The notes beneath the pieces are model-generated. The model did not search any database and was not told where the DNA came from. It saw only the letters and a program-made list of their open reading frames with translations. The position numbers and the translations under genes were made by a program. A stretch of 64,000 bases of DNA, taken from the NCBI RefSeq assembly GCF_016801985.1, contig NZ_JAEVLS010000001.1, positions 1,054,001 to 1,118,000 of the forward strand, written 5' to 3'. This stretch comes from Steroidobacter gossypii. Lineage in GTDB: Bacteria; Pseudomonadota; Gammaproteobacteria; Steroidobacterales; Steroidobacteraceae. Below, piece after piece: positions 30,545 through 48,306 of the stretch; the stretch's first letter is position 1, and the number at the start of each line of letters is the position of its first letter.

Positions 30545-31774
30545 ATGTCCCGCAGTTATAAGATCACCTTGCTGATCGCTCTGTATATCGCGCAGGGCCT
30601 GCCCTTCGGCTTTTTCACGCTGGCGCTGCCCGTGCTGTTGCGAGAGGCCGGCTATTCACTCAAGGAGATCGCCGCGCTCAGCGTCCTGTCCCTGCCGTGG
30701 TTCCTGAAGTTCCTGTGGGCCCCAGTGCTGGATCACACCGGCTCACGACGGGCCTGGCTGCTCGGCCTGCAGTTCGCATCGATCGCAGCGGCGCTGCTGC
30801 TGACGAGGGCCGACCCGAGCGCCGACCTGAGCACACTCATTCTGGCCGCGCTGGTGTTCAACCTCCTGGCCGCTTCTCAGGACGTGATCACCGACGGCCT
30901 CGCCGTACGCATGCTGGATCAGAAAGAGCGCGGCCTGGCGAATGCCATTCAAGTCGGCGCATATCGCTTTGGCATGATTCTCGGCGGTGGTCTTCTGCTG
31001 GCTGTGTTCGCACGGACGAACTGGGAAGTGACCTTCCTGTCGATGGCCGGCCTGCTTGCACTCACCGTGATACCGACGTTCGCACTCAAAGACCCGGCGC
31101 CTCGAGAAGACGCACCGAGATACAGCCCCGGCCAACTTCTCATCATCTGGCTCCGCCGCTTGTTTCAGCGAGGCATGCTGCGGTTCGCGCTGGTCATCGT
31201 GCTGTATCGCTTCGGCGATCAGATGGTGGCAACGCTGCTCGGCCCGTTCCTGATCGATCAAGGCATGAACAAAGAAGCCATCGCGCTGATGAAAGGCACA
31301 GTCGGATCCGGCACCAGCCTGCTCGGCGCAGTGCTGGGCGGCTGGCTGGCGTTCAGTGCCGGAAGGCGCACCGCCATCCTCGCAAGCGGTATCGCACAAG
31401 CTGCGTCATACACGCTGTACATCGTGGCTGCGATGGGCCTGGGCGGAGTGAGCCTGCTGTGGGTTGCGACCATCTTCGAAGGCGTCATCGGCACGATGGC
31501 CACCGTCGCATTGTTCACATTGATGATGGACGCTTCCGACCCCGAGCATGCCGGCACCGACTACACGTTGTTCGCCAGCCTGGTGGTGCTGATCGGGCCA
31601 GTCGGCAACATCTCCGGCGCCGCCGTAGCAGACGCGCTCGGCTATGGCCCCGCGTTCACAGTGGGAGCGATTCTCGCGTTGGCGGGAACACTCATCGTGG
31701 TACGCATGCTGGACCACAAACCCGTCCCAGCGCGCGTGGCCGAAGTCTGGAAGCCGGCGAGAGCGAGCGCCTAA
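30545..31774 (+). CDS. MFS transporter, AmpG-like
   Basis: 409 residues, about 12 membrane segments. N-terminal IALYIAQGLPFGFFTLALPV and WFLKFLWAPVLDHTG match the AmpG / acetyl-CoA-transporter (SLC33) branch of MFS, as does SQDVITDGLAVRML with its buried Asp. AmpG moves anhydromuropeptides into the cytoplasm for cell-wall recycling; the length is short for E. coli AmpG (491), so siderophore carriers of the RhtX/FptX type are an alternative. The 202 bases upstream hold no gene. Its stop overlaps that of the opposing histidine kinase. Confidence 0.85.
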   Translation: MSRSYKITLLIALYIAQGLPFGFFTLALPVLLREAGYSLKEIAALSVLSLPWFLKFLWAPVLDHTGSRRAWLLGLQFASIAAALLLTRADPSADLSTLILAALVFNLLAASQDVITDGLAVRMLDQKERGLANAIQVGAYRFGMILGGGLLLAVFARTNWEVTFLSMAGLLALTVIPTFALKDPAPREDAPRYSPGQLLIIWLRRLFQRGMLRFALVIVLYRFGDQMVATLLGPFLIDQGMNKEAIALMKGTVGSGTSLLGAVLGGWLAFSAGRRTAILASGIAQAASYTLYIVAAMGLGGVSLLWVATIFEGVIGTMATVALFTLMMDASDPEHAGTDYTLFASLVVLIGPVGNISGAAVADALGYGPAFTVGAILALAGTLIVVRMLDHKPVPARVAEVWKPARASA

Positions 31775-33594
31775 TCGGGCAACTCGATAGTGAACGTCGC
31801 GCCTGCGCCCGGCTTACTCTGAGCGAACACTCGCCCGCCCAGCCGCTCGACGGCCTTGCGCACCAGCGCCAACCCGATGCCCGTGCCGGGATACTGATCG
31901 TCCCGATGCAAGCGTTGAAACAGCTTGAAGATGTGATCGTGGTACTGCATGTCGAAGCCGATGCCATTGTCGGTGACCGCCAATACGACCCCGTCACTCT
32001 TGCGACGACACACCACGGCGATGTGTGGGCTCGGGGTATCGCGCGTGTACTTCAACGCGTTTTCCACCAGATTCCGCAACGCTTGCGCGAGGCCGCTGGC
32101 GTCCACGCGTAGCGTCATCGGCTCGACCACCACGGTCATGACGATGCCGCGGCGTTGTATCTCGTCCTGATACGAACTCAACACCTGATCCACCAGTGAC
32201 GGCAAGCTCACCACGCTTGCCTGCATGCCGCGCCGATCGATCTGCGAATACGACAACAGATCATCGATCAGCGTCGACATCTTCACCGAGCCATTGCGGA
32301 TACGGGCGAGATGTTCGCGAGCGCGGTCCGTCAGCTCTGCTGGCAGTTCCTGCTCGAACAGGTGCGCGAAGCCATTGATCGCGCGCAGCGGCGCCTTCAA
32401 ATCGTGAGCGACCGCATATGAAAAGCCTTCGAGCTCCTCATAGGCGCGCTTCAACTCGGTGGTGCGCTCGCTGACGCGTTGCTCGAGCGCCGTGGTCAAG
32501 TCCCGATACCGCGCCTCGCTATGACGCAGCTCGACATTCGCATCCTGCAGCTGCTGATTGGCCATCACCAACTGATTGGTCAGGTGCTGCGATTCGTTCT
32601 GGATCCACGCCTCGCGCGCTCCGAGGATGACGGCGAACAGAATGAAGATGGTGGCCGACAGCCAGATCACACGCGGCGTGAACGTAGCGCTGCTGCTCAA
32701 CGCCACGGCCACCATGATGACGAGCAACAGCGCCGGCATCACCGCCTCGAGCCAGCGCTCGCGAGCCTGCATCTTGTGGCGAATGTCACCATGGTCGCGC
32801 TTGCTCAACCAGGCCTGCTCGTGACCCGCCACCGCAATCAGACCGAACATCAGCAGCCAGCTGGCATTGACCATGTCGTCCGGCAGATAGCTTTGGGTCA
32901 GCAGGGCATGCGCATACGTGAAGTTGGAGATCGCATAGATGCAAGTGGCGAACACCAGCAGCAGCATCGGCGTCCAGGACGCGCCCCAACGAAAGGTCCA
33001 GAGCGCGCTCAAGGTGGACAGAAACGTTCCGGCGACCAGTACCGTATGCGCCACGCCTACCCACAGAAACATCGGTGTGACGCTCGGGCTCTGCAGCGCC
33101 GGCTCGAGCATGCCCAGCACCACTGTAATCGCCAGGCAGCAAGCGACCAGCCCAAGGTTGCCGACATGCTTGAGCGTGAATGCAGCCCGGTTGCGGGCTT
33201 CGGGCAGCATCAGCACGCCGGCCACCACGAACACGGCGAAGCCCGTGTAGAAGATCTGGTTGAGACTCGGAAACGGCTGCGCCACCTGGAGAACCAGCTG
33301 CACGTAGTTCCAATGCAGCTGCCCGATCAACCAGCTGCCGCAGGCGAGGGCGATCATCGACCAGGCGCGCCGACGCTCGGGCTCAACCTGGCGGGAACTG
33401 CGGAAGCACACCAACGTCGCGGCTGCGGCAGCCACCGTCCATGCGACATCGTTGATCCACACCTGCACGCCATTGCTGGCCACATAGATGGCGACGCCAT
33501 AGACTGCGAGCCCCGCCAGCCAGGCATACGCCAGCGCCCAACGCGAGCGCGTCGAATCGAGGTCGGTGTGGATCTTGTCTGCTTCGGCTGCCAT
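31771..33594 (-). CDS. Membrane sensor histidine kinase
   Basis: 607 residues from ATG 33594 (the open frame reaches 33768 over an Arg-rich non-hydrophobic stretch and into the zinc-ribbon gene, so I reject it). Eight to nine membrane segments fill residues 20-330 (AYAWLAGLAVYGVAIYVASN, MFLWVGVAHTVLVAGTFLS, ERWLEAVMPALLLVIMVAV). A coiled coil follows, then HisKA with the phospho-His in FSYAVAHDLKAPLRAING, and HATPase with NLVENALKYT, DNGIGFD and GTGIGLALVRKAV. This phytochrome-like HisKA type is common in orphan kinases; no response regulator is adjacent. It lies 50 bases behind the zinc-ribbon gene of the MoxR cluster and in the same direction, so it may be part of that transcript. Confidence 0.92.
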   Translation of the reverse strand: MAAEADKIHTDLDSTRSRWALAYAWLAGLAVYGVAIYVASNGVQVWINDVAWTVAAAAATLVCFRSSRQVEPERRRAWSMIALACGSWLIGQLHWNYVQLVLQVAQPFPSLNQIFYTGFAVFVVAGVLMLPEARNRAAFTLKHVGNLGLVACCLAITVVLGMLEPALQSPSVTPMFLWVGVAHTVLVAGTFLSTLSALWTFRWGASWTPMLLLVFATCIYAISNFTYAHALLTQSYLPDDMVNASWLLMFGLIAVAGHEQAWLSKRDHGDIRHKMQARERWLEAVMPALLLVIMVAVALSSSATFTPRVIWLSATIFILFAVILGAREAWIQNESQHLTNQLVMANQQLQDANVELRHSEARYRDLTTALEQRVSERTTELKRAYEELEGFSYAVAHDLKAPLRAINGFAHLFEQELPAELTDRAREHLARIRNGSVKMSTLIDDLLSYSQIDRRGMQASVVSLPSLVDQVLSSYQDEIQRRGIVMTVVVEPMTLRVDASGLAQALRNLVENALKYTRDTPSPHIAVVCRRKSDGVVLAVTDNGIGFDMQYHDHIFKLFQRLHRDDQYPGTGIGLALVRKAVERLGGRVFAQSKPGAGATFTIELPD

Positions 33595-33644
33595 CGCCGC
33601 TAGTATGCCTTCCCTGTCGCAGCGGCGTGCAGTGGCAGCGAGCA

Positions 33645-33827
33645 TCAAGTCAGCTTGATGCGCTCCTCGCCGCAGCGCTTGCAGCGTTCCGTGCTGACCA
33701 GCTTGCCTTGCTTCACATCGAAGCGTCGTGCCGAGAGCAGTTCCCATTTGTGAAAGCCCGACGAGCACAGCGTCTTGCCGTCGGCGCGTTTCTGTTTGGC
33801 TTTTTTCAGATTGATGACGTTCGACAT
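33645..33827 (-). CDS. 60-residue zinc-ribbon-like protein
   Basis: From ATG 33827, three bases beyond the DUF4159 stop (a TTG two codons earlier would overlap that stop). The N terminus is basic (NLKKAKQKRADGK), then CSSGFHKWELLSARRF and a C-terminal TERCKRCGEERIKL. One Cys and one His in the first half and a C-x2-C pair in the second make a plausible single zinc site. Small proteins of this look occur in proteobacteria as conserved hypotheticals; I know no function. Placement at the end of the MoxR cluster suggests a regulatory or assembly accessory role. Confidence 0.72.
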   Translation of the reverse strand: MSNVINLKKAKQKRADGKTLCSSGFHKWELLSARRFDVKQGKLVSTERCKRCGEERIKLT

Positions 33828-33829
33828 GT

Positions 33830-34678
33830 TCAATGGGTCATTGCATACACGACCACATTCACGCCGACCATGTAGGAGCGGGTCGAGAACGTCTCGAAGT
33901 ACCAGTCGCCGTACGCCTCGCGCTCCCAGCCGTCACCGACGTCGGTGTTGTGAGTGGCGAGCACCATGATACGGCCATCGTCGTCCAGCCAGGCGCGCAT
34001 CTGTGGCTCGTCGAGCGAGCCGGCGGGAAACTTGTGAGCGCCGGGGGATTCGGCGGTGCTGCCGCCGGGGCTGGCAAAGGGCAGCGCCGGGATCTGCGGC
34101 ATCTCTTCGAGATCGAACACGGTATGGAAGATGGGATGTTCGGGCGTGAGCACGCGCCATTCGCGATTCGGCAGCACGGTGCGCATCACGTTGGCGAACT
34201 GCTGCCACTCGGCATCGCCCCAGAAATCATCGACCCACACGAAGCCGCCGCGCGCCAGATAGCTCTCGAAAGCGGCGCGCTCCTGCTCCGAGATCACCAT
34301 GTATCCGGGGTCGGACATGTACAGCATGGGAAAGTCGCCGAGATCCGGCGCCGTCAGCAGGCGACTCGAGGCCTGGGGCGCGACATGGATGCGAGTCAGC
34401 TGCTGGAGTCGATGACTGAAATTGTCGTCGCCTTCGGGGAAGTCGGTCTCCCATCGCGCCCACACTCGACCGTCGTAGGCGTAGTAGGCCTCGCCCATGC
34501 CGCCTTCGCTGTCGTAGATGGCGCGGACCAGATTGAGCCGCGCCATGTCGGGCGGCGTCGACGAGCGTCCGCCGTCACCCGTGATGAGATTCGTTCCGGC
34601 GAGCGCGGCCAGCGTCGCGAACGCCGCGTAAGTGGCCAATAGCGAGAGTGGCAGCCGGTGCTTCATGTTCCGAGCCAA
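33830..34678 (-). CDS. DUF4159 domain protein
   Basis: 282 residues (278 if the second Met at 34666 is used). An N-terminal hydrophobic segment (LPLSLLATYAAFATLAALAG) works as signal or anchor. The rest is the DUF4159 domain: FSHRLQQLTRIHVAP, LYMSDPGYMVISEQERAAFE, YLARGGFVWVDDFWGDAEW, PEHPIFHTVFDLEEMPQIP. The fold is thought to be GATase/flavodoxin-like; there is no nucleophilic Cys in the expected place. DUF4159 proteins regularly lie beside MoxR, DUF58 and BatA-like genes. It sits 10 bases behind the DUF4175 gene. Probably a periplasmic part of the complex. Confidence 0.88.
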   Translation of the reverse strand: MARNMKHRLPLSLLATYAAFATLAALAGTNLITGDGGRSSTPPDMARLNLVRAIYDSEGGMGEAYYAYDGRVWARWETDFPEGDDNFSHRLQQLTRIHVAPQASSRLLTAPDLGDFPMLYMSDPGYMVISEQERAAFESYLARGGFVWVDDFWGDAEWQQFANVMRTVLPNREWRVLTPEHPIFHTVFDLEEMPQIPALPFASPGGSTAESPGAHKFPAGSLDEPQMRAWLDDDGRIMVLATHNTDVGDGWEREAYGDWYFETFSTRSYMVGVNVVVYAMTH

Positions 34679-34688
34679 AGACTCTCAA

Positions 34689-37600
34689 TCAACGATTCCC
34701 CAGGCGACGGTAATACTCGGCCACGGCTTCGCGATAACGCGGCGACTCCGGCGACGGCAACGTTGCATGCGCCGGTTTGTCGCCGCGGACGCGAGCCGCG
34801 GCATTCAATGCAGTGAGTTCAATCTGATCGATGACCTTCAACATGGCCTCACCCTGCTCGGCCATGGGATCGCCGTTCAAACGTCGCAACTGATTGGCAT
34901 GGCGACGCAAGGCCTCCAGCTCGGCGGGGGTGAGCTCGCCATCCGTCATGCGATTGGTGAGATCGCGAATGCGTTGACTGATGGCGCTGGTCTGTCGAGC
35001 CAGCGAGCCCCGGCCATCTTCGAGAGTGTTGATGCCGCGCGCCGGTACGATCGGATTCCACGCGGACAATCCATTCTGCGCGCCGGCGCTGCCGCCGCGA
35101 GAGCTTTGGCGCTGCGACGAGCCGGGTTGTCGCGAGCCGGGCGCGCCGTTGCTGCCGTCGGCCTGCTGACCTTGACTATTTTCGCCGCCCTGTTGGTTTT
35201 GCGCGCTGAGCTGCGATTGGCCACCGCCTTGCTCCGATCCATCGCCCTGCTGTGATTGCTGATCGCCGCGTTCGCCCGGCTGGCCTCCGAGGCCCTGTTC
35301 CTCGCTGCTCCTCTGCGCACTTCTCACGGCCCGGCGAAGTTCCGCGACCTGCGCCAGCAAATCATCCGTCGTGGCGGCGTCGCGCCTCTGCGATCGTTCG
35401 CTCGAAGCCTGAGTTGCGGCTTCGCGCAGATCGTGCTCGAGGTTTTCGAGCGCTTCGGTGATCAAGCCTTCGCGAGGCGCGGCTTCGCGAGCGCGGCCGT
35501 AATAGATTTCGGCGGCGCTGCGATTCAATCGATACATCACATCCGAGCCTTCGATATCGCGCACGATTTCACTCAGACGCTGCGTGCTCTTGGGTGTGCC
35601 GGCACGATGCTGATGCACGGCGCTGCGCATATCGCCTTGCAAGTTGGACAGCTGGTCCGCCATGCGTTGTTTGGATTCGACCAGGTCCTTGACGCTGCGC
35701 TGATTCAGGCCGCCACGACCGCTGGCCCGGAAGCTCGACTCGTTGCTTTGCGACAGCGCCTTGTACAGCTCGCTTTCGATACGACGCTGATCCTCCAGCA
35801 ACTCGCCGGTGCGGTCGGCGAACTGTTCGAGGGCCTGATCAAGGCGCGACGCTTCGGGCTTGTCGATCTGGCGAAGCGCCTGGCGCAGATGTTTGCTTGC
35901 TTCCCGCGCGGACTGCGAGCCCTGCGACTCGCCCGCCTCGTTGGGCTGATTGGCCGCCTTCATGTTCTCCAGCGCCTGGTTGACGGACTGCAACGCCTGC
36001 TCGATCTCGGATCTTTCCGAGGCGTTGCTGCCGCTCTGACCACGAGAGCCGGAGCTGGAACCGCTTTGCCCCTGGCGCGATGAATTGCTGGCCTGCTGCT
36101 GTTGTGACGAACCTTGCTGCTGCTGACGATTCAGCGCATCGAGCCGACGCCGCAGATCTTCCGCCTCTCGACGCAGCTGTTCCTGCTGCCAGCGCTGTTC
36201 CTGCATGGCCCGCGCATTGCGCTGTTCCTGCGCGAGCTTCTCCTGGCGCTCGGCCAGTTCTTTGAGCTTGCGGATCGCCTCGTTCATCTCCTGCTGGGTA
36301 TTCTGCTGCGACAATTGCGATTCGCTTTCGTACTGGCTTTTTTCCACGTCCATTTCGAGCTCGAACATCTCGGCGAAGTTGCGGGCGCTCTGCGAGCCTT
36401 CACCGCCACTCTCCTGTTGCATGGAAACCTGCACTTCGCGGAAGGCTGCTTCGGCGCGCAGCAACTGTTGCAGCGCCTGCTGTTCCGGCGTCACTGCCTG
36501 TTGCAGCCGAAATGCAGATAGATGACCGGCCGCAGGCTCCATGAGCCCGGCAGCTCGCTCCAGGCTTTCGACAAACGTTTTCACGCGGTCGTCGGCTTCC
36601 ACTTCCATGCGAGCGCGGGTTCTTTGCGCCAGCGTGCGTGCCTGTTGCGCCAGGGTGGACTGGAAATCCGCCAGCATGCGCGCGCTGTCTTCCAGCTGTT
36701 CGCGTGTGCGGGCGTTACGCTCGTCGCTTCGTTGCAGATTCCAGGTCGCGAGCAGGATCTCGCGTTGACGCTCCGAGATCGCGCCCTGCTCGTCCGCCAT
36801 GCCACCGCCACCTCCGCCGCCGCCCTGGCCTTGTTTGAAGGTGCGCTCGAACGGCTGGACCTGCACCATGAACAGATCGGTCTGCACCGTCTGCTTGCGA
36901 TCCTTGGCCACCGCGTAATAAGAGACCAGATCGCCGGGCTGCAGCCGCTGCGCCTCGGTTGCCTTGGCGCCGAGCTCTTCCATGCTCAGCAACGACTGGT
37001 TGTCGGCCCGCTGGGTGTTGCCGGCGACCGGCATTTTTTTCCATTCGCCGCCGTTCACCGAATACAGCAAGGAAACATCGCGCAACCTGAAATCGTCCTC
37101 CGCCTGGATGTGCACCGGCACTTCCTCGATGCTGGTGGCGCGCCAGTCGCGGCCGGGCTTGCGGATCTGAATGCTGGGTTTTTCGTCGGGCACGATCTCG
37201 ATTGGATATTCGTCGCTGAGCGCCACGAACTCGTCGGCGACGCGCGCGCCGATCTGATAGGCCCCGGGCTGGTTGACGGCGATCGTGCCGACATTGGCGC
37301 GACCTTCCTGCTCCAGCTGCTGACTGCGTCCATCCACGATCAGCGCCGGCGCCTCGAGCGGCGCATCGGCAAACACTTCCACTTTGACGTCGGTGCCCGC
37401 GACCGCCCGAATGTCGCGCGATTCTTCATCTGTCAGCGATTCGAGCCCGGTCCATTCAGGATAGGAGTAAGTCAGGCGCACTTTCTGGATACGCGGCAGA
37501 TCCACCACGCCGATGTGGTGCTCGGCGCTGCGAATGCCATCCGCCTGGACGTAGTAAGCGAGCGGGCCTCGCACGGCGTAAAGTTTGAAATCGTACTGAC

Positions 37601-38333
37601 CTTCTTCACCGGCCCGCATCGGCGCCGCTTCCCATTGCTGCTGATCGGCGAAGCGGACGAAGACTTGTGCCTGCTCGGGTCGAAAGCCATCGGTGGTGGC
37701 GCGAATCGCCACATCGCTGTTGCGCCTGACGGTGGCGGTGCCGGGCAAAACATCGATGGTTTTGACGATGATGGCTGCTCGCGGCAACTCGGCGCCCAGC
37801 AACAGGTGACGACTGGCGAAGCCCCAATAGGAAGGTCCTACGCTCAGCAACAGCGCCAGCGCGATCACAGCGACGCCGGCGATCGCTGCAGTCGTCAACA
37901 ACCGATGGCGTGTAACGACGGCGGCGGGCGGCGTTTTTTCTGCGATGCTGGCGGCGTCGGCGGCGAGCAGCTCGATCAGTGGCGTTTTGATGCCTGCAGC
38001 TTCGCGGCGCCTGGCATCGAGATAAGTCTGAATGCGACCGCGCTCTTCAGGCAGCCGCTCTTCGAAAACACGTGAGCCTTGATCGCGCGCCAGGCGTCGC
38101 AGCGGCAGCCACAACAGCAGCACCACCACGGCCAGCAACAAACATATGAGCGTGATGCGCGCGGAGATCGCGATGGAGGGCGCGAAGTCCCGCCGATTGA
38201 ACAACCAGACCGCGCCGCACGTGACTAGCAATGTGCCGGCTGCGGCAACCGCTCCGGCGCGCAGGTAGATGTGACTTTGCAGCCGCCGGCGCAATGCGCC
38301 CAAGTAGCTTTCGAGTCGTTCACGTGAGGTCAT
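34689..38333 (-). CDS. DUF4175 family giant membrane-anchored coiled-coil protein
   Basis: 1214 residues from ATG 38333 (ATGA overlap with the BatA-like gene). Two membrane segments near the N terminus (AGAVAAAGTLLVTCGAVWLF, ITLICLLLAVVVLLLWLPL) and a third near residue 170 (TTAAIAGVAVIALALLLSV). Then Ig-like beta regions (TIDVLPGTATVRRNSDVAI, IQIRKPGRDWRATSIEEVPV), a Gly-rich hinge (about 530), and a long Gln/Glu-rich helical part up to residue 1000. Two low-complexity tracts, rich in Q/S/G, lie at about 770-820 and 1040-1110. Likely a periplasmic scaffold. DUF4175 proteins accompany MoxR clusters in proteobacteria; function is unknown. Confidence 0.87.
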   Translation of the reverse strand: MTSRERLESYLGALRRRLQSHIYLRAGAVAAAGTLLVTCGAVWLFNRRDFAPSIAISARITLICLLLAVVVLLLWLPLRRLARDQGSRVFEERLPEERGRIQTYLDARRREAAGIKTPLIELLAADAASIAEKTPPAAVVTRHRLLTTAAIAGVAVIALALLLSVGPSYWGFASRHLLLGAELPRAAIIVKTIDVLPGTATVRRNSDVAIRATTDGFRPEQAQVFVRFADQQQWEAAPMRAGEEGQYDFKLYAVRGPLAYYVQADGIRSAEHHIGVVDLPRIQKVRLTYSYPEWTGLESLTDEESRDIRAVAGTDVKVEVFADAPLEAPALIVDGRSQQLEQEGRANVGTIAVNQPGAYQIGARVADEFVALSDEYPIEIVPDEKPSIQIRKPGRDWRATSIEEVPVHIQAEDDFRLRDVSLLYSVNGGEWKKMPVAGNTQRADNQSLLSMEELGAKATEAQRLQPGDLVSYYAVAKDRKQTVQTDLFMVQVQPFERTFKQGQGGGGGGGGMADEQGAISERQREILLATWNLQRSDERNARTREQLEDSARMLADFQSTLAQQARTLAQRTRARMEVEADDRVKTFVESLERAAGLMEPAAGHLSAFRLQQAVTPEQQALQQLLRAEAAFREVQVSMQQESGGEGSQSARNFAEMFELEMDVEKSQYESESQLSQQNTQQEMNEAIRKLKELAERQEKLAQEQRNARAMQEQRWQQEQLRREAEDLRRRLDALNRQQQQGSSQQQQASNSSRQGQSGSSSGSRGQSGSNASERSEIEQALQSVNQALENMKAANQPNEAGESQGSQSAREASKHLRQALRQIDKPEASRLDQALEQFADRTGELLEDQRRIESELYKALSQSNESSFRASGRGGLNQRSVKDLVESKQRMADQLSNLQGDMRSAVHQHRAGTPKSTQRLSEIVRDIEGSDVMYRLNRSAAEIYYGRAREAAPREGLITEALENLEHDLREAATQASSERSQRRDAATTDDLLAQVAELRRAVRSAQRSSEEQGLGGQPGERGDQQSQQGDGSEQGGGQSQLSAQNQQGGENSQGQQADGSNGAPGSRQPGSSQRQSSRGGSAGAQNGLSAWNPIVPARGINTLEDGRGSLARQTSAISQRIRDLTNRMTDGELTPAELEALRRHANQLRRLNGDPMAEQGEAMLKVIDQIELTALNAAARVRGDKPAHATLPSPESPRYREAVAEYYRRLGNR

Positions 38334-40408: not shown

Positions 40409-41308
40409 TTACGTTCGCCCCTCTCTGAGCAGCAGATAGCGCCGCAACGCGTTGTCGAGAGGTTCGTCCGTGGTGATCAACAGCTGATGCGCGCCGACGT
40501 TGGCGGCCGCGCGACGCAGCGACTGCAAGTGATCGTCGAGACGCTGCCGATATTCTCCGTTGAGAAATTCGGGCGATACATTGAGGGTCTGTCGTGTCTC
40601 GATGTCCTCGAGCAGCACCGACTCACGCCAGTTCGGGCGCATCTCCTGCGGATCGAGCAGCTGGAACAACATGATGTCGTGACCGCGATACGCCAGCGGC
40701 TGCACGGCTCTGCTCATGGCGGCAGGATCGCAATAGAGATCCGAGATCACCGCCACCAGTCCGCGACGCGACAGGTGCTCGCCGAAACGCTGGAAACAAG
40801 CTTCCAGGTCGGTGCCATTGCCGGGCGTCACTGCATCGATGGCGTGGATCATTGCGATCAAGCTGCCCGCACGGCTGGTGGCAGGGCGGAAAGCGCGCAC
40901 CTGCTCATCGAACACGATCAGTCCGACCGGATCGTGCTGCCGAGCCGCGAGATAGGCGAGCGCGGCGGCGAGATACTTCCCATACTGCAGCTTGGTGATC
41001 GAGTGCGAGCCGTAGCCCATCGAGGCGCTGGCGTCCAGCAGGATCATCAGGCGCGTGTTGGTCTCGCCTTCGTAGCGACGTATATAAGTGCGCTCAGTGC
41101 GGGCAAACACATTCCAGTCGACGAAGCGCGGATCGTCGCCTTCCACATAGGCGCGATACTCCTTGAACTCCTGACTGAAGCCGTAATGGGGCGAGCGGTG
41201 CAGTCCGGTGAGGAAGCCTTCGACGGCGGTGCGCGCGATCAGCTCCAGATTCGCCAGTCCGGCCAGCGTTTCAGGCGGCAACAGGCGATTGGAGGCGGTG
41301 GCGTTCAC
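40409..41308 (-). CDS. DUF58 domain protein (VWA-like)
   Basis: 299 residues from GTG 41308, which overlaps the MoxR stop (GTGA); the open frame to 41659 is only shadow of moxR. The DUF58 signature is clear: GLHRSPHYGFSQEFKEYRAY, GDDPRFVDWNVFARTERTYI, followed by a VWA-like metal motif LLDASASMGYG. RGLVAVISDLYCDP is the later conserved block. No membrane segment, so cytoplasmic. DUF58 proteins are the most constant partners of MoxR and are believed to link the ATPase to membrane VWA subunits. Confidence 0.93.
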   Translation of the reverse strand: MNATASNRLLPPETLAGLANLELIARTAVEGFLTGLHRSPHYGFSQEFKEYRAYVEGDDPRFVDWNVFARTERTYIRRYEGETNTRLMILLDASASMGYGSHSITKLQYGKYLAAALAYLAARQHDPVGLIVFDEQVRAFRPATSRAGSLIAMIHAIDAVTPGNGTDLEACFQRFGEHLSRRGLVAVISDLYCDPAAMSRAVQPLAYRGHDIMLFQLLDPQEMRPNWRESVLLEDIETRQTLNVSPEFLNGEYRQRLDDHLQSLRRAAANVGAHQLLITTDEPLDNALRRYLLLREGRT

Positions 41309-42306
41309 GGCTCGATCACCTCGCGCAGCACCTCGTCGACGCTTCTGCCGTCGGACTCCGCTTGATAGTTCGTGAGCACACGGTGCCTCAGCACCGGCAA
41401 TGCCAGCGCACGCAGATCGTCGTTGGTGACGTGATAACGCCCTTCCATCAAGGCTCGCGCCTTGGCGGCGAGACATAGGAACTGGGTTGCTCGAACACTG
41501 GCGCCATAGCGAACATAGCGACGCACGGCCTCGGGAGCACTTGCTTCGCGGGGCCGCGTCGAACGCACCATCTCCACCGCCTTGCGCCGGACTTCGTCCG
41601 AGAGCGGCACCTGCCGCACCAGCCATTGGAATCTCACGATCTCCTCGGCGTTGGTGCACGGCTCCACCTGTGGGCTCGTCATGCGCGAAGTGTTGCGATC
41701 CACCACTTCCAGCTCATCGTCGACGCTGAGGTAGTCCAGCAGCACGTTGAACAGGAACCGATCCAGCTGCGCTTCGGGCAACGGATAGGTGCCTTCCAGC
41801 TCGATGGGATTCTGCGTGGCCAGCACGAAGAACGGTTCGCCCAGAGTGTGCGTGGTTCCGCGCACTGTCACGGAATGTTCCTGCATCGCTTCGAGCAACG
41901 CCGCCTGGGTTTTCGGCGGGGTGCGATTCACTTCGTCGGCGAGCAGCACATTGGCGAACAGCGGGCCGGGCACGAAGCTCCAGCGCCGGTGACCGGTGGT
42001 GATATCTTCTTCGATGATGTCGGTGCCGGTCACATCGGTAGGCATCAGATCGGGCGTGAACTGGATGCGCTTGAACGTCAGGCCGAGCGACGTCGCCAGC
42101 GTTTTCACCAGCAGGGTCTTGGCGGTGCCGGGCATGCCCGTGATCAAACAATGTCCGCCCACCAGCAGCGTCAGTAGCAAATAATCGACTACTTCCTGTT
42201 GGCCGACGATGACGCGCCGGACCTGCCCGCGAATCGCACCGATGCGATCGCGGAACAACTCCACCAGCGCAGCGGTGTCCTGCTCGGTCGGGACATCGGT
42301 TTTCAT
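41305..42306 (-). CDS. MoxR-family AAA+ ATPase
   Basis: 333 residues from ATG 42306 (overlaps the upstream TGA; a TTG one codon earlier is possible). Walker A GMPGTAKT, Walker B VLLADEVNRTPPKTQAALLE, sensor 1 VLATQNPIELEGTYPLPEAQ, arginine-finger region LDRFLFNVLLDY, and sensor 2 / lid ASVRATQFLCLAAKARA. MoxR proteins are hexameric chaperone-like ATPases that load or remodel VWA-containing complexes. Located in the middle of the ten-gene cluster, directly before DUF58. Confidence 0.95.
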   Translation of the reverse strand: MKTDVPTEQDTAALVELFRDRIGAIRGQVRRVIVGQQEVVDYLLLTLLVGGHCLITGMPGTAKTLLVKTLATSLGLTFKRIQFTPDLMPTDVTGTDIIEEDITTGHRRWSFVPGPLFANVLLADEVNRTPPKTQAALLEAMQEHSVTVRGTTHTLGEPFFVLATQNPIELEGTYPLPEAQLDRFLFNVLLDYLSVDDELEVVDRNTSRMTSPQVEPCTNAEEIVRFQWLVRQVPLSDEVRRKAVEMVRSTRPREASAPEAVRRYVRYGASVRATQFLCLAAKARALMEGRYHVTNDDLRALALPVLRHRVLTNYQAESDGRSVDEVLREVIEP

Positions 42307-44564
42307 CAAGTACGCTCCTCGATCATTTGCAGCAGCAGAGCTTGCGCAGGCTTGTAGTGTGGGGCAGTGGCGAGCGCATCCAGCAGGTGACGGCGACTGC
42401 CGGATTGATCGCCTAACTCGCGCAAGGCGCGCGCCATGCCAAAGTGAGCGGGTGCTTGATCGAGCGTGTTCAGCGCAAGCAGCGCCTGGAACTCGCGGAA
42501 CGCTTCTTCGGCGCGACCTGCAGTGAGCAATCGCTCGCCAAGCTGCGAATGCAACTCGGCATTGAGCGGATCGGCATAGTTGAGCGACACCAGCACGTCG
42601 GTAGCGTCACTCGCCCGACCCGCTTCATCCAGCCAGCGTGCCAGCTCTTTCAATGCGGTCGGATCCCAACCGCCGGCGCGTCGATAATCTTCCAGCGCCA
42701 CGATGGCGTCGGGCCGGCGATTCAGCTTGTCCAAGGCACGCGCCAGCATGAGATGAGCGCTGTCTCCGCCGACATTCTCCGGATAAAGCGCGACGGCGCG
42801 ACGCGCAGGTTCGACCACATCGCTCCAACGTTCCTTTTGCAGCGCCTGCCGCGCCGTCTGTTGCTGCTGCTGCCATTCACTGAAGTTGGCGAGCACATTG
42901 GCGAAGCGCGTGCGAACGAATGTATCGAACTCCTTGTCGAACGCCGCTGGCGCGATCTTGAACGTCGCCTCGATGGCCGCGGCCGTGGAGCGTTTGCCAT
43001 CGAACTGCCGCAACAGCACGCCCAGTTGCTCGAAGCCCCAGCGCTGTTCGATGAACAGACACACCAGGCCCGACTGCATGTACGAGATCTGCACCTGGTT
43101 GGGATAGCTCGGGCGGATGAAACCCGAATCCAGCTCGGCGATGGGCAGGAATTGTTTCTTGTCGAGCGCGGCGATGGTTTCCGGCGGCACCGCCACTCCG
43201 GGCGTCGGCCCGGTGCGCCATTCTTCGAACACCGAGATGCCTTCGCTCAGCCAGCGCGGCACGTGATGGTCGGTGGCTTCCAGGGTGAACACGTGCGCCA
43301 TCTCGTGCCACAGCGTGCTGCCCCAATGGAAATCTCCCGGCGCGCGACCGGACGGGCTGTCCATCGCTACCACATAACCAAACGTCACACCGAGCAGACC
43401 GATGCCGGGCAGGGCCGCCACGCGAACCGCGAAGTCGTCGTGATCCGGGTACATCTCGACGGTCACCGGCTCGCGCAATTTGAAGCCGTAACGCTGTGTG
43501 AAGCTTTCGATGCTGCGGGCGGTGAGACTCAAGACGTACGGGCGCAGCACCTCGGCTTCTTTCTTATGCAGCCGCAACTGAACTTCATACGTGTCCTGCG
43601 CGATCGTCACTGGATCCACGCTGACCGAGAACTCGCCGATTCGATCCAACAGTCGCAGTGAGTTCACGGTGGTCGGGCTGTAAGGATCGCCGGAGTAGGC
43701 CGCCTGCAGATGAGTGCGTGCCTCCTCGACGTTCCCCAGCCGCAGCAGGTTGGAGCCCAACTCGGCATGCGCGCTCCAGAGGTCCGGCTGCACTTCGACC
43801 GCCTGCCGCAGCAGAGCGGTCGCTTCCTTATATCGGCGACGCATGATCTCGAAGTGAGCCAGTTGCTCATACACCGCGCCGTAGCGTGGGTTGTAGTCGA
43901 GGATGCGTTCGACCCACTGATCGGGCGAGTTGCCGCGAGACATCTCCAGCGAAGCGCGCAGCGCATACACCTCCAGCGGCGGCAGCTTTTCTTTGCTGAC
44001 CAGCCGCATCGCGCGATCCAGCGCCTTCCCGGCGTCCTCGAGCTTGCCTTCTTCCAGATCCATCGATGCGCTCAGCAGATGCGCCTCGATCAGATCGCCA
44101 TCCACCTTGAGCGCTTCATCGACCAGCGGCCGCGCCTGGCCTTCGAAACGCTCGGCATACACGCCGGCGAGACCGAGCTTGGCGTGCACGTCGTTGGGAA
44201 ACACACGCAACGCTTCGCTGAACACCTGAGCTGCGTCGGAGTACTGATGGGTCTGAAGAAACAATCGCGCCCAGCGCACCCGGGGCTGCACGGCGCGCTC
44301 GTTGTTCTGGACGGTATTGCGGAAGATCTCGTTGGCGCGCTTGATGTCACCCAGCGCCCACGCCGCTTCTGCCTGCACGATCGGAGTGTTCGATTCGAGC
44401 AGCTTCATGTAACAAGTGCGTGCCTGCTCGGTGCGGCCGCGATAGCGCTGATCGTCGCAGGGACGCAGCTCCACCGCGCGTCGCGGATCGTAGTCGATGG
44501 ACTGCGCACCCACAGCCGCGGCGAACACGGACAAGATGAACGCGATCGACAGCTGCCGCCTCAT
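42306..44564 (-). CDS. Secreted TPR protein with gluzincin peptidase domain (peptidase MA-like)
   Basis: 752 residues with a signal peptide ending AVGAQS. TPR repeats fill about 60-320 (RWARLFLQTHQYSDAAQVFS, HFEIMRRRYKEATALLRQAV) and again about 590-750. The centre has a zinc metallopeptidase motif HEMAH (420-424), with LSEGISVFEEW about 20 residues later giving the third zinc ligand Glu. This is the gluzincin peptidase MA arrangement, and the catalytic residues are intact. Predicted periplasmic protease with protein-binding arms. It overlaps both neighbours by a few bases (ATGA with the caspase-like gene, TGATG with moxR). Confidence 0.9.
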   Translation of the reverse strand: MRRQLSIAFILSVFAAAVGAQSIDYDPRRAVELRPCDDQRYRGRTEQARTCYMKLLESNTPIVQAEAAWALGDIKRANEIFRNTVQNNERAVQPRVRWARLFLQTHQYSDAAQVFSEALRVFPNDVHAKLGLAGVYAERFEGQARPLVDEALKVDGDLIEAHLLSASMDLEEGKLEDAGKALDRAMRLVSKEKLPPLEVYALRASLEMSRGNSPDQWVERILDYNPRYGAVYEQLAHFEIMRRRYKEATALLRQAVEVQPDLWSAHAELGSNLLRLGNVEEARTHLQAAYSGDPYSPTTVNSLRLLDRIGEFSVSVDPVTIAQDTYEVQLRLHKKEAEVLRPYVLSLTARSIESFTQRYGFKLREPVTVEMYPDHDDFAVRVAALPGIGLLGVTFGYVVAMDSPSGRAPGDFHWGSTLWHEMAHVFTLEATDHHVPRWLSEGISVFEEWRTGPTPGVAVPPETIAALDKKQFLPIAELDSGFIRPSYPNQVQISYMQSGLVCLFIEQRWGFEQLGVLLRQFDGKRSTAAAIEATFKIAPAAFDKEFDTFVRTRFANVLANFSEWQQQQQTARQALQKERWSDVVEPARRAVALYPENVGGDSAHLMLARALDKLNRRPDAIVALEDYRRAGGWDPTALKELARWLDEAGRASDATDVLVSLNYADPLNAELHSQLGERLLTAGRAEEAFREFQALLALNTLDQAPAHFGMARALRELGDQSGSRRHLLDALATAPHYKPAQALLLQMIEERT

Positions 44565-45475
44565 GACCCGCCTCCGCCCATTCTGGAATCGATCTCTTTT
44601 TGCAGCAGGGCCAGGCGCACCAGCACTTCTTCGAGCTGATCGTAGTATTGATTCTCGGGCAGCGACGCCTTCTGCCCTTTCACGCGATCGAGATCCTGTT
44701 CGATGGCGCCTCGTTGTGACAGCAGCGCTGCGACTTCGGGATTGTCGGGCGCCAGGGCGGCGCTGCCGAGCCGGGCGATGGTGAAGCGGCCCGCGTCGTC
44801 GCCTTCCATACGTGCATGCTCGGTCGCCATCGCCGTCTCCGACTTGAAGGCCGCTTCGACTTGATTGGTCGCGAAGGCATACGCTTCAGCCGCGGTGACG
44901 ATCTGGTCTTTATTGGTATCGGCAGCATCTGAGGCGACCGCTTGCGCCCAATACTGGGCAAAGCGCGTCGCCGTGCGCTCGCCACCGCTCTTGGTCGCAG
45001 TGATCACGACGCGTCGTGGCTTCTGCCATCGCTCGAGCACGGCGCCGCTGGCGCTGGTGGCGTTGATGATCAGTTGATCTCGCGCAGGCAACTCATCGAA
45101 CAGCCGCGCCAGTTCCGTGTCGGTGAGATCGGGACCGGGCAGATTGAACCGATAGTTCTCGCCGTCGTAACTGCCATGACCGATGAGCACGACCACCGCG
45201 GCGTCGTCGGCATTCATGCGAGCGGCGAGCTTCTTGATCTCGCGTTTAACGGATTCGGCGCGAGCTCCACCGCCGCTCAGCGAGACGACATTGTTGGAGC
45301 TGCCGGCGGCTGTCTCCGCCGCACTCGCCACCGCCACGGCGTATTCACGAAATTTCTGTTCATACGCCGGCTCGCCGCCCAACCCTGCAATGACGACGGT
45401 GTAGGTAGCAGCGGAAGCGGGCAACGCCAGCATAGCGATGAACGAGGCGAGCGCGAGGCGAGGGAAGTCGCTCAC
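44561..45475 (-). CDS. Secreted caspase/legumain-like protein without catalytic Cys
   Basis: 304 residues from GTG 45475 (GTGA overlap with the upstream gene; gives a clean signal peptide ending ALPASA). The fold is C13/caspase-like: strand plus catalytic His100 in VVVLIGHGSYDG, then INATSASG about 40 residues later where the nucleophile belongs in a C-x-S-G motif. That position is Ser141, so there is no cysteine protease centre. An EF-hand-like loop (D186, N188, D190, E197 in ADTNKDQIVTAAEAY) may bind calcium. The C terminus is a helical pair. Either a pseudo-protease scaffold or an enzyme using Ser. Lies between the VWA/GATase-like and TPR-peptidase genes. Confidence 0.82.
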   Translation of the reverse strand: MSDFPRLALASFIAMLALPASAATYTVVIAGLGGEPAYEQKFREYAVAVASAAETAAGSSNNVVSLSGGGARAESVKREIKKLAARMNADDAAVVVLIGHGSYDGENYRFNLPGPDLTDTELARLFDELPARDQLIINATSASGAVLERWQKPRRVVITATKSGGERTATRFAQYWAQAVASDAADTNKDQIVTAAEAYAFATNQVEAAFKSETAMATEHARMEGDDAGRFTIARLGSAALAPDNPEVAALLSQRGAIEQDLDRVKGQKASLPENQYYDQLEEVLVRLALLQKEIDSRMGGGGS

Positions 45476-47748
45476 AGTCGCCCCCACCGCAATCGCAACA
45501 GCCATTCAGCCAACTTCAGCGCCAGCAAGGTCAGGAACACGATGGGCAGATTCCACAGGTCCAGCGTCTGGCGCTCGACGATGCCGGCCTTGGAATAAGG
45601 AATGGCGCCGGCCAGCCCGTCCAGATCGCTCAACGGCCAATAGCGTCCGCCGGTGGCGTTGGCGATGCGTTCGAGCAGATCGCGGTGCTGATAGGTGGCA
45701 AAGTGCTCGGCCACGCCGTCGTTACGCAATACGTGCGTTATGGCGGTCCCGACCTCTTTATCAGCGACGCGTGCACTCATTTCGATGCGATACAGGCCGG
45801 CGGAGGCAGCATCGAGGGTCGCGGTATAGCGACCATCGCCTTGCCCGGAGGGTTGCATGATCTGGCTGAACGCGGTGTCGCGCTCTGGCGCTACATGCAA
45901 TTCGACCGTGGCGTCGCTGATGGGTTCGAAGCGCTCGTCGCGCACTTCGGCTTCCAGACGCACCATGCGCTCGTCCTCATACACCGTACGCTCGCTGTTC
46001 ACGGTCACGCGCGACGGCGCTGTCGAAGCAATGGCATGCATGAGCTGTCGCCAGAACATTTCGTGGCTCTGATCCTCGGAAGGCATGCGCATCTGCCAGC
46101 GCATGGTGCTGGCGGTGGCCAATATATAAGTCGCGCCACGCCCATAGTGTTGCCAAACCAGCAAGGGGGAACGCCCCTGCTGGCCGTTTGCTTCCAACAA
46201 CACGATGGCGCCCGGCTTGAGCCGACCCAGCGACTGGTAATCGGCCAGCGGCGGCAAGTTCTTCCAACGGTCCAGGTTCCGCTTGGGGTCGCCGTCCAGC
46301 CGGGGGATGGTGGATTCGGCGCCATAGATCGTCAGCTGCGCCTGGCCTTGCCGTTGTACGAACTGCGCCGGTTGCCGGCCAGTGAGTTGCACGGGCAGCG
46401 TCTGTGCCAATGCCGCGTTCTGCCAGCCGCCGGCGGAAAGTCCGTAACGACCGGCCAGCATCAACACCGAGCCGCCGCGCTTGTCGACGAATTCCTTGAG
46501 CAATCGGTGTTGCTCGGTGCGGAGTGCTGCTGCTTCGTAGCTGCCGATGATGACCGCGTCGTAACCGAACAGCTCGGCGGCGTCGGAGGGAAAGCCGTCG
46601 ACCAGCTCGTCCGGGGAATTCACCCCCTGGCGGTAATGTTTGTTGGGGGTGGTGCGGACGATGCTGGCGACGCGCAAGGCGCGATCGCGATCCACCGCCC
46701 GCCGCAGGAACTTGTATTCCCAGCGCGGCTCGCCTTCGACGTACAGGATGTTGCGTCGAGTCGCGGGAACATTCACTACGCGAGTGCGCGTGTTGTTGAT
46801 CACGTTGCGCTCGCCTTCCAATGGATCGAGCACGAAGCGCAATTCGTGCGTGCCGGCCTGGCCGGCGGGAAGGTCCAGCGATAACTGCGTGGTCGGGGCG
46901 TCGGGGCGCAGTTTCACGTCACGGGCTGCTACCAGATTGTCACGATCGTAAACGCGCAGGCGCGCCTGCGCGGCGCCGTTGTGACGAATGCCGATCTGCG
47001 CGTCGATGGTCGAGCCGGCCGGCGCCGTGCTGGCGACTTCGACGCGCTCGAGCTCCAGATCGTCGGTCATTTGTTCGGGGCCGATGCCGACAGTGTGAAC
47101 GGGCACGCCGTACGAGGCGATCTCGGCGAGCCGCTCTTCGCTCAACGTGTTGCCGTTTTCCGCACCGTCGCTGAACAGGATGACTCCGGCCAGCGGCGCG
47201 CTGCCGGCGCTTTGCAAGACTTGAGTGAGCGCGTCGCCGATGCGCGTCTGCCTTCCAGGTGCTGGCATCGAGTCCAACGAATCCAGCGGCGTGGTGGATT
47301 GCGCGAATCCGAACAAGCGGACCGCGAAGGTTTTTTCCAGCCGCGGCAGGGTGTCGTTCTGCAAGGCGGCGGCAACTTCCTGAAGGCGGGACTGGCCGGC
47401 CGCGCCATACGCCATGCTGGCCGACGCGTCGACCGCGATGGCCAGTTCGTTTTCGCGATCCCGAACGCGCTCCACGTTCAGGACCGGTCGCCACAACAGG
47501 CACAGGATCAAGGCGATCAGCGCGGTCTGGAGCACGCCCACCGGAACCAACAGCGACCAGCCCAGTGCACGCCGCCGCCACAGCGTCCAGGCGACCAGCG
47601 CCGCGCCCACCAGAATCGAGGTTATGAGCAGCCCTATCGGCCATGCGCTCGCAAACGCGAACGTGCCGGTTCGATACGCCCAGATGGGATGAGTGAACAG
47701 CCGCTCGAACACTGGCCAGTAATAGGCGAAGCGCCCGCCGGAACGCAA
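45472..47748 (-). CDS. Membrane VWA protein with degenerate GATase-like domain
   Basis: 758 residues from TTG 47748; GTG 47712 (start MFERLF) is an equally good choice. Two membrane segments (PIGLLITSILVGAALVAW, VGVLQTALIALILCLLW) are followed by a VWA domain with AVDASASMAYG and VILFSDGAENGN. Residues about 340-450 resemble a class I glutamine amidotransferase fold (LFGYDAVIIGSYEAAALRTE, GGSVLMLAGRYGL) without the Cys nucleophile. A beta-rich part and a C-terminal anchor (LPIVFLTLLALKLAEWLL) follow. First gene of the MoxR cluster. The 132 bases up to the divergent encapsulin cargo gene must hold its promoter. Confidence 0.87.
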   Translation of the reverse strand: MRSGGRFAYYWPVFERLFTHPIWAYRTGTFAFASAWPIGLLITSILVGAALVAWTLWRRRALGWSLLVPVGVLQTALIALILCLLWRPVLNVERVRDRENELAIAVDASASMAYGAAGQSRLQEVAAALQNDTLPRLEKTFAVRLFGFAQSTTPLDSLDSMPAPGRQTRIGDALTQVLQSAGSAPLAGVILFSDGAENGNTLSEERLAEIASYGVPVHTVGIGPEQMTDDLELERVEVASTAPAGSTIDAQIGIRHNGAAQARLRVYDRDNLVAARDVKLRPDAPTTQLSLDLPAGQAGTHELRFVLDPLEGERNVINNTRTRVVNVPATRRNILYVEGEPRWEYKFLRRAVDRDRALRVASIVRTTPNKHYRQGVNSPDELVDGFPSDAAELFGYDAVIIGSYEAAALRTEQHRLLKEFVDKRGGSVLMLAGRYGLSAGGWQNAALAQTLPVQLTGRQPAQFVQRQGQAQLTIYGAESTIPRLDGDPKRNLDRWKNLPPLADYQSLGRLKPGAIVLLEANGQQGRSPLLVWQHYGRGATYILATASTMRWQMRMPSEDQSHEMFWRQLMHAIASTAPSRVTVNSERTVYEDERMVRLEAEVRDERFEPISDATVELHVAPERDTAFSQIMQPSGQGDGRYTATLDAASAGLYRIEMSARVADKEVGTAITHVLRNDGVAEHFATYQHRDLLERIANATGGRYWPLSDLDGLAGAIPYSKAGIVERQTLDLWNLPIVFLTLLALKLAEWLLRLRWGRL

Positions 47749-47880: not shown

Positions 47881-48306
47881 ATGGCCAGCGAATCCCTGCA
47901 CGAGAGCGCCGAGGCGCTGCGTCCCGAAACCATCGATCGGCACCGCGCCGTGTCCTCTTTGATGGAGGAGCTGGAAGCGGTGGATTGGTACGACCAGCGC
48001 ATCGATGCCGCCACCGACGCCGAGCTCCGAGACATCCTGTCCCACAACCGCGACGAGGAAAAAGAACACGCTGCCATGGTGCTGGAGTGGCTGCGCCGGC
48101 GCGATCCCAAGCTCGACGAGCATCTGCGCACCTACCTGTTCACGTCCAAGCCCGTGCTCGAGATCGAGGAGGAGGCCGAGGGCGCCGAGGGCGCCGAGAA
48201 AGGCAACGGCAATGGCGACGGCTGCCTGAACATCGGCAGTCTGCGTGGCGAACAACAAAGCCCGATCCGCCACCTCTGGCGCATGGGAACAGGAATCGAA
48301 TCATGA
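47881..48306 (+). CDS. Encapsulated ferritin-like protein (EncFtn cargo)
   Basis: 141 residues. SSLMEELEAVDWYDQRIDAA and ILSHNRDEEKEHAAMVLEWL identify the encapsulin-associated ferritin family. Ferroxidase ligands expected from the Rhodospirillum rubrum protein map to E30, E60 and H63. Two protomers build the four-helix bundle and the di-iron site; decamers oxidise Fe(II) inside the shell. An acidic/Gly linker (EEEAEGAEGAEKGNGNGDG) leads to the targeting peptide CLNIGSLRG (115-123), which docks on the encapsulin inner wall. Unusually, 18 residues (EQQSPIRHLWRMGTGIES) follow the peptide. The stop overlaps the encapsulin start by ATGA. Confidence 0.94.
   Translation: MASESLHESAEALRPETIDRHRAVSSLMEELEAVDWYDQRIDAATDAELRDILSHNRDEEKEHAAMVLEWLRRRDPKLDEHLRTYLFTSKPVLEIEEEAEGAEGAEKGNGNGDGCLNIGSLRGEQQSPIRHLWRMGTGIES

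Follow-up and report, generated by a model that had tools for sequence, protein, structure and literature searches.

What does a MoxR ATPase serve when it is encoded among large VWA membrane proteins and two peptidase-like exported proteins? The question is raised by a locus of Steroidobacter gossypii lying in a window of 64,000 nucleotides, the whole stretch of DNA analysed (assembly GCF_016801985.1, contig NZ_JAEVLS010000001.1, positions 1,054,001 to 1,118,000; coordinates below are those of the window), in a genome of 7.1 Mb whose closest named kin, judged by MoxR, are Steroidobacter and Peristeroidobacter. Ten packed minus-strand genes were confirmed at 47748..31771, running from a VWA membrane protein (VWA1) to a histidine kinase. 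An earlier note on this DNA had proposed that the ATPase loads a membrane VWA scaffold, which presents substrates to a periplasmic protease under sensor control. Seven of the genes were taken as the core, in the order VWA1, legumain-fold protein, zinc protease, MoxR, DUF58 protein, BatA-type VWA protein and DUF4175-like protein. Comparison of sequences across genomes indicates that the cluster is a discrete, old module inherited like a unit, and one that is apparently unstudied: the open-access literature, subscription papers lying outside the search, yielded nothing on MoxR with DUF58 and DUF4159, on DUF4159, on MoxR in Steroidobacter or on acidobacterial MoxR/VWA/peptidase sets.

The conservation of this core was followed from close to distant genomes. 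A search of 60 genomes for the zinc protease, covering the own genome and 59 relatives, found a clear orthologue in 20 of the relatives (39–86% identity, E ≤ 1.8e-150), the other matches being mostly short and of TPR type, and the core order was retained in all 20 neighbourhoods as far as the genes fit on the contig, 15 of them reaching the DUF4175-like gene. The alignment of legumain-fold proteins was also run against 84,980 species genomes and produced 496 confirmed relatives. The 80 best of these (hereafter the named loci, extending 10 kb past the legumain-fold gene) belong to Gammaproteobacteria, Acidobacteriota (Bryobacterales, Terriglobus, Edaphobacter and others) and two metagenome-assembled genomes labelled Rhodospirillaceae, both of which sit within the gammaproteobacterial rows of the MoxR tree. 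Profile searches placed the seven core genes collinearly and on one strand, within the reach of the contigs, in 79 of the 80 named loci, which span Pseudomonadota and Acidobacteriota, more than chance would give; only L118 departs, its DUF58 match being out of order in an overlapping reading frame. All seven genes are present in 55 of the 80, the others being without end genes and none without an internal gene. Since the named loci were drawn with the legumain-fold query, these counts show the company kept by that gene and not the abundance of the cluster. Among 369 sampled genomes of the class, the legumain-fold profile found matches in 18 at E ≤ 1e-5, and all 7 of these with E < 1e-60 lie within the cluster, namely the own genome, G013 and five others (one on a short contig and two without DUF4159 nearby). 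The genes thus stay together in related genomes; had they not, the earlier note would have held its reading refuted.

Outside the class, 70 of 247 sampled species of Acidobacteriota match the legumain-fold profile at E ≤ 1e-10, and 20 of these, taken from below the best eight, were fetched as a divergent set. Thirteen carry VWA1, legumain-fold protein, zinc protease, (DUF4159), MoxR, DUF58, BatA-type VWA and (DUF4175-like), and two are without a detected zinc protease. Three more (L202, L206 and L208) hold MoxR, DUF58, BatA-type VWA, DUF4175-like, VWA1 and legumain-fold genes with no zinc protease detected, and the remaining two (L204 and L209) hold the pair of zinc protease and legumain-fold protein alone. 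Plasmids were searched with DUF58, which matched 157 records, and with DUF4159, which matched 2; these brought in a third phylum, Gemmatimonadota, where a plasmid of Gemmatirosa kalamazoonensis carries VWA1, legumain-fold protein, zinc protease, DUF4159, MoxR, DUF58, BatA-type VWA and DUF4175-like genes. Pairwise distances were found to correlate in Mantel tests over the window and 60 loci holding the zinc protease, legumain-fold and MoxR genes (zinc protease with legumain-fold protein 0.90, MoxR with legumain-fold protein 0.84, MoxR with zinc protease 0.93), none of 500 permutations reaching values as high, and shared host ancestry contributes to these figures too. In a quick MoxR tree the two phyla part by one change (support 89, not starred). 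Cultured species with the locus include Terriglobus roseus DSM 18391 (L117), Edaphobacter aggregans (L114) and Steroidobacter agaridevorans (L059). The gene set, its order, the motifs, the legumain fold, the absent Cys described next and the unit-like inheritance are, at this level, readings of the sequences themselves.

The second gene of the core (44561..45475, minus strand) encodes a protein with a signal peptide that gave no Pfam match in the window copy; on 37 of its relatives, Pfam found Peptidase_C13 in 13 (best E 2.2e-8) and Peptidase_C14 in 6. An AlphaFold model (pLDDT 92.6, pTM 0.81) gave 124 Foldseek matches at E ≤ 0.001, headed by legumains (4n6o, E 1.4e-8); peptide ligases are among them too, and MALT1 and a subunit of GPI transamidase (chain 8imx_K, E 9.7e-7) rank lower. 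Of the features that define clan CD, the legumain/caspase fold and the catalytic His were found and the catalytic Cys was not. In the model, His79 (residue 100) follows strand 71–78 and Ser120 (residue 141) follows strand 112–119, Ser standing at the Cys position. An alignment of 99 rows (the window, 18 relatives and the 80 named loci, 88 of them distinct as 11 contigs were fetched twice) has His at residue 100 and Ser at residue 141 in every row, with Cys at residue 141 in none. The 21 divergent copies (20 from Acidobacteriota and that of Gemmatirosa) all have His100, and at residue 141 they carry Ser in 19, Asn in one, Thr in one and again no Cys. An EF-hand-like loop at residues 186–197 is also kept (D186 in 97 of 99 rows, Asn or Asp at residue 188 in all 99, E197 in all 99).

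The adjoining residue 142 is Cys in 6 of the 99 rows and 4 of the 21 divergent copies, so that the choice of alignment column matters. The nearest Cys-bearing relative found in the own genome is a 528-residue membrane protein (L151:5562-7148, on C11, the contig of the window, at about 102 kb) with a Peptidase_C13 match at E 1.4e-18 and an intact SHG...SACYSG motif. In a gap-free alignment of this C13 protein with the legumain-fold protein, its Cys falls on Ser141. The register is the same for metacaspase-4 (E 0.035), whose chain would be a Cys-to-Ala mutant, judging by its letters. The alignment with 3bij (E 0.0049) instead places the Cys on residue 142 by means of a one-residue insertion, and speaks against the Ser141 column. 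The "caspase-like" label of the earlier note is therefore right as to the fold and wrong as to the catalytic Cys. With the Cys missing, the protein is not to be counted as a cysteine protease, which leaves the zinc protease as the one peptidase-like protein with a complete motif. The Asn and Thr found at residue 141 in two copies incline us to a pseudo-enzyme, and we take as most likely a pseudo-peptidase role, in substrate binding or in regulation of the zinc protease.

The zinc protease (42306..44564, minus strand) is a TPR-flanked gluzincin with a signal peptide, HEMAH at residues 420–424 and, as third ligand, E441. It scores 44.9 bits with Peptidase_MA_2 (cut-off 32.4), so that score, HExxH and downstream Glu are all in place. 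Over 97 rows, H420 is kept in 95 (2 gaps), H424 in 96 (1 gap) and E441 in 94 (1 gap, 1 Q, 1 X), and HExxH is retained in all rows reaching that region. MoxR and the three VWA proteins keep their motifs too. MoxR (41305..42306, minus strand; AAA_3, 206 bits), whose P-loop ends in TAKT, keeps the Walker A Lys in 88 of 89 rows (1 gap) and the Walker B Asp-Glu in 87 (2 gaps). The DxSxS motif of the VWA domains is retained in 81 of 81 rows of the DUF58 protein (40409..41308, minus strand; 163 bits), in 80 of 81 of the BatA-type protein (38330..40408, minus strand; 1 gap) and in 91 of 97 of VWA1 (45472..47748, minus strand; 5 gaps, 1 X). The BatA-type protein, with its two-anchor N-terminus, is well above threshold with PF07584 (60.7 bits, cut-off 25.9) and TIGR02226 (52.5 bits, cut-off 23.05). 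VWA1 gave only sub-threshold Pfam scores, for the GATase1-like PF07090 (26.2 vs 27 bits) and VWA_2 (18.4 vs 27 bits). The DUF4175-like protein (34689..38333, minus strand; 1,214 residues), which has a long Gln/Ser/Gly-rich, coiled-coil-like region, falls just below the cut-off of PF13779 (26.1 vs 27.3 bits).

By a hydropathy scan, the legumain-fold, zinc protease and DUF4159 proteins have N-termini resembling signal peptides, VWA1 and the BatA-type protein each have two transmembrane segments at the N-terminus and one at the C-terminus, with positive inner loops, and the DUF4175-like protein has three at its N-terminus; the DUF58 protein, the presumed cytosolic partner of MoxR, shows no such segment. 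From this pattern, the cytosol would hold only MoxR and DUF58, and six core proteins would be placed at the inner membrane or outside it. The BatA-type VWA domain of Borrelia BB0173 was shown to be periplasmic (PMC5700661); by analogy, and from their own sequences, the two large VWA domains of VWA1 and the BatA-type protein should face the periplasm. With these domains outside the inner membrane, MoxR could not reach them directly, and DUF58 would be its VWA partner in the cytosol. The model of the earlier note can accordingly be kept in part: a MoxR/VWA machine tied to a zinc protease, which the retained HExxH makes plausible, is maintained, and an ATPase acting directly on the large VWA domains is given up on the grounds of hydropathy and charge.

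The reading that is favoured here, with somewhat less than even confidence, is that MoxR and DUF58 form a motor whose action passes through the membrane to a VWA/DUF4175 scaffold; the scaffold would position or regulate the zinc protease, and the legumain-fold protein would be a pseudo-enzyme. MoxR, using ATP, and the soluble VWA protein DUF58 would form a cytosolic motor and its adaptor. The motor would act on cytosolic loops of an inner-membrane scaffold made up of the BatA-type VWA protein, VWA1 and the long DUF4175-like tether, and DUF4159 would be an exported accessory. Beyond the membrane, the VWA domains of the scaffold, with their MIDAS (metal-dependent peptide-binding) sites, would hold the exported TPR zinc protease and the Cys-less legumain-fold protein, which could bind substrate or regulate the protease, and cycles of ATP hydrolysis may assemble, open or recycle the complex, probably in the processing of envelope proteins or in envelope integrity. 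Topology, complex formation, the motor, scaffold and pseudo-enzyme roles and the envelope function are what we infer, and they draw on the collinearity (79 of 80 named loci, 13 of 20 divergent loci and Gemmatirosa), the correlated divergence, the kept Walker, MIDAS and HExxH+E motifs, the legumain fold with His100 and without Cys, the hydropathy with its positive-inside charges, and the precedents of Borrelia BB0173, of chaperone-like MoxR proteins and of RL3499. Several points weigh against this reading. The topology has the hydropathy scan as its sole basis, and the scan also flags one segment in MoxR (39–57, beside the P-loop), which was taken as false, or as buried core. The zinc protease is undetected in 5 of the 20 divergent loci, which yet keep VWA1, MoxR and the legumain-fold protein, and 2 of the 20 have the pair alone, so that the modules appear separable. 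The near-invariance of Ser141 is also what an active serine would show. MoxR systems elsewhere mature enzymes and do not drive proteolysis. Additionally, Leptospira biflexa without any bat genes is reported to have no growth or morphology phenotype (PMC3557215).

The Ser itself leads to the first of the competing explanations, in which Ser141 and His100 would make the legumain-fold protein an active enzyme that cuts or joins peptides, like the cysteine enzymes of the legumain family, and forms with the zinc protease a two-enzyme processing or transamidase machine. Every one of the 99 rows has this Ser, as do 19 of the 21 divergent copies, with His100 kept; it follows strand 112–119 as the His follows strand 71–78, which is how the catalytic pair of the clan is placed, and the Foldseek matches include the GPI transamidase chain and peptide ligases. 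These points are opposed by the Asn and Thr at residue 141 in 2 of the 21 divergent copies, and by two further points: no serine peptidase of clan CD is known to us, and a Ser-for-Cys change often abolishes activity. The explanation is judged unlikely. A fuller version, in which this serine-nucleophile legumain/caspase branch and the zinc protease would form an ATP-coupled envelope processing machine, MoxR-DUF58 pulling on or resetting a VWA/DUF4175 scaffold that hands exported proteins to the two-enzyme centre, where peptides may be cut or transferred as by GPI transamidase, is more unlikely still. As probable as the simple serine enzyme, and likewise a minority view, is a Bat/MRP-type MoxR operon that assembles or matures an envelope complex, the peptidase-like proteins being chaperone parts or clients and proteolysis not its output. 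MoxR, DUF58 and a BatA-type VWA protein are the common core of Bat-type operons (PMC5700661, PMC11834572), and a peptidase-less DUF4159-MoxR-DUF58-BatA set occurs in three gammaproteobacterial loci. Nevertheless, the active site of the zinc protease is complete, no BatD match was obtained among the ten proteins at E ≤ 0.1, and the own genome has further MoxR-DUF58 sites, one of them followed by a small VWA protein; a simple Bat operon was rejected for want of a BatD match.

The remaining explanations are far less probable than these. A sensor-controlled unit of ten genes, with the histidine kinase as a working part, would be in keeping with the compact order in the window and three close relatives, and is made very doubtful by the presence of the kinase in only 3 and of the zinc ribbon in only 4 of 20 related loci, by the lack of an adjoining response regulator and by the 50-base gap before the kinase. 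A MoxR-VWA conflict (defence) system, of the kind of the ternary systems of Kaur et al. 2020 with caspase-like effectors, is very improbable: the theme of MoxR, VWA and a caspase-like protein is shared with PMC7159879, and MoxR exceeds the cut-off of bpMoxR (39.7 vs 27 bits), but AAA_3 scores far higher on the same protein, PADLOC gave a single weak match (mads_8, 18.4 bits), on which ground a defence island was rejected, and the proteins are exported, without the Cys and of stable composition where effectors would be swapped. The words DUF58 and DUF4175 are moreover absent from the main text of PMC7159879. Service to the adjacent encapsulin and its ferritin-like cargo is the least credible of all: an EncFtn-like ferritin and an encapsulin start about 130–170 bases upstream, divergently, in the window and in 10 of 20 related loci, but they were flagged in 7 of the 80 named loci, all close kin, and the core persists without encapsulin elsewhere, including in Acidobacteriota, so that the link was rejected as lineage-local.

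Among described systems, the Bat (Bacteroides aerotolerance) operons, or operons with MoxR of the MRP subfamily, come closest in having MoxR, an adjacent DUF58 protein and a BatA-type two-anchor VWA protein with a membrane-bound periplasmic VWA domain, and the cluster differs from them by its added VWA1 with GATase1-like region, zinc protease, legumain-fold, DUF4175-like and DUF4159 proteins; no BatD family was found among the Pfam or NCBIfam matches of the ten proteins. The RL3499-RL3502 operon of Rhizobium leguminosarum (Vanderlinde 2011) is alike in its MRP-type MoxR and broad conservation, and envelope and morphology defects are reported for it. RL3500-RL3502 are said to encode a DUF58 protein, a BatA-N/DUF4159 protein and a membrane protein. 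So described, the operon is not known to include a zinc protease or legumain-fold gene. In a transposon screen, RL3499 and RL3500 were growth-impaired on one medium (PMC5118466), and MoxR proteins are described as chaperone-like, RL3499 of the MRP subfamily being important for membrane integrity and cell morphology (PMC3893208). The legumain/C13 and C14 peptidases of clan CD share the fold and the catalytic His with the family of the window, in which Ser replaces the nucleophile Cys. The MoxR-vWA ternary conflict systems share MoxR, VWA and a caspase-like protein, and differ in that the predicted topology here is that of the envelope and the P-loop ends in TAKT, against the TAKS variant described for two of them (PMC7159879). 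Their VMAP, iSTAND, FtsH-like and beta-propeller partners were not seen among Pfam matches of the ten proteins at E ≤ 0.1, the profiles of PMC7159879 itself not being used. A DUF4175 domain is also found in the Acinetobacter division protein AdvA, with two predicted transmembrane helices (PMC7481262).

A smaller set of the same kind bears on how the cluster arose. Three gammaproteobacterial loci (L210-L212) resemble it in having DUF4159, MoxR, DUF58 and BatA-type genes together, and differ in that no legumain-fold or zinc protease gene was detected. In L210, Pfam confirms DUF4159, DUF58 and BatA, the next gene is a relative of DUF4175 (hhalign 93%, E 3.1e-7), and the gene after it reaches an hhalign probability of 0.8% with VWA1. 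The simplest reading of these sequences is that the peptidase pair was added to a known kind of MoxR envelope set; it is possible, alternatively, that the smaller set arose by loss of the pair.

The eighth gene encodes a DUF4159 protein (33830..34666, minus strand; PF13709, 146.9 bits vs cut-off 25.9) with an N-terminal hydrophobic segment and a possible TTG start at 34678. Its only Foldseek match at E ≤ 0.001 is 4i66 (E 1e-12), an uncharacterised structural-genomics protein, which consequently gives it no function. Of the 20 related loci, 7 have DUF4159 at the 3' end and 6 have it 5', on the same strand in 5 and divergently in 1; in the other 7 it was unseen. In the 80 named loci it stands 5' on the same strand in 40 and 5' divergent in 6, with none despite upstream room in 23 and none without such room in 11; as the named loci end 10 kb past the legumain-fold gene, a 3' DUF4159 would lie beyond most of them. 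By this distribution, DUF4159 is part of the system but mobile in position. DUF4159 genes without core partners nearby were seen in 5 of 8 stretches taken (L213-L217), one of them (L213) in the own genome on contig C32.

The zinc-ribbon-like protein (33645..33827, minus strand; 60 residues, two Cys pairs) matched no Pfam model above cut-off and gave only weak PHROG matches (best E 0.00028). The membrane histidine kinase (31771..33594, minus strand; HisKA and HATPase_c) has no response regulator beside it. The two are found in 4 and 3 of the 20 related loci, respectively, which are 4 and 3 of the 7 with a 3' DUF4159; they were rejected as core parts, and appear from these counts to be lineage-specific companions. 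With such rarity, sensor control would be local at most, and the "under sensor control" of the earlier note is not borne out.

The tight packing read by the earlier note, with overlaps and short gaps along all ten genes, agrees with the coordinates and the junctions in the sequence. VWA1 and the legumain-fold gene share a 4-base GTGA overlap, the legumain-fold and zinc protease genes an ATGA, the zinc protease and MoxR genes one base (TGATG), MoxR and DUF58 a GTGA, and the BatA-type and DUF4175-like genes an ATGA, the last 4-base overlap being found also in 12 of 15 related loci holding both genes. The gap between DUF58 and the BatA-type gene is 0. DUF4159 follows the DUF4175-like gene after 10 bases (TTG start) or 22 (ATG), the zinc ribbon follows DUF4159 after 2 bases, and the histidine kinase follows the zinc ribbon after 50. 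VWA1 may start at GTG 47712 instead of TTG 47748: the alignment begins at residue 13 in 9 of 18 related loci and at residue 12 in one, and from residue 1, the TTG start, in three close relatives. A promoter scan gave 2 sigma-70-like sites vs 3.4 expected, which is background level, and the 19 terminator-like sites vs 13.1 ± 4.0 expected were uninformative. A recurring open reading frame beside or between MoxR and DUF58 was seen in L075, L087, L100, L108 and L113, the one in L087 resembling what we take to be GxxExxY proteins.

On its upstream side the cluster diverges from the EncFtn-like ferritin (47881-48306, plus strand) and the encapsulin (Linocin_M18, about 48306-49139, plus strand), and downstream it is met convergently by an MFS transporter. 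When the flanks of 106 loci were clustered, the most widespread family reached 9 of them. It is carboxylesterase-like (in Steroidobacter and SAR86-like genomes including L107, L130 and L131), standing 1.3–6.4 kb from VWA1 in the members printed. The window carries a carboxylesterase-like Abhydrolase_2 gene at 54395-55084 (plus strand), whose membership of one family with the genes of L107, L130 and L131 is only putative.

Clients are known for few of the widespread MoxR ATPases. In this locus, MoxR is found in a stable module with a zinc protease of complete active site and a legumain fold changed from Cys to Ser family-wide, and the module is present in 70 of 247 sampled species of Acidobacteriota at E ≤ 1e-10 and sparse in Pseudomonadota (7 of 369 class genomes at E < 1e-60). 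If the favoured reading is true, MoxR-DUF58 would gain a defined proteolytic output, and the cluster would offer a test case for the function of periplasmic VWA proteins.

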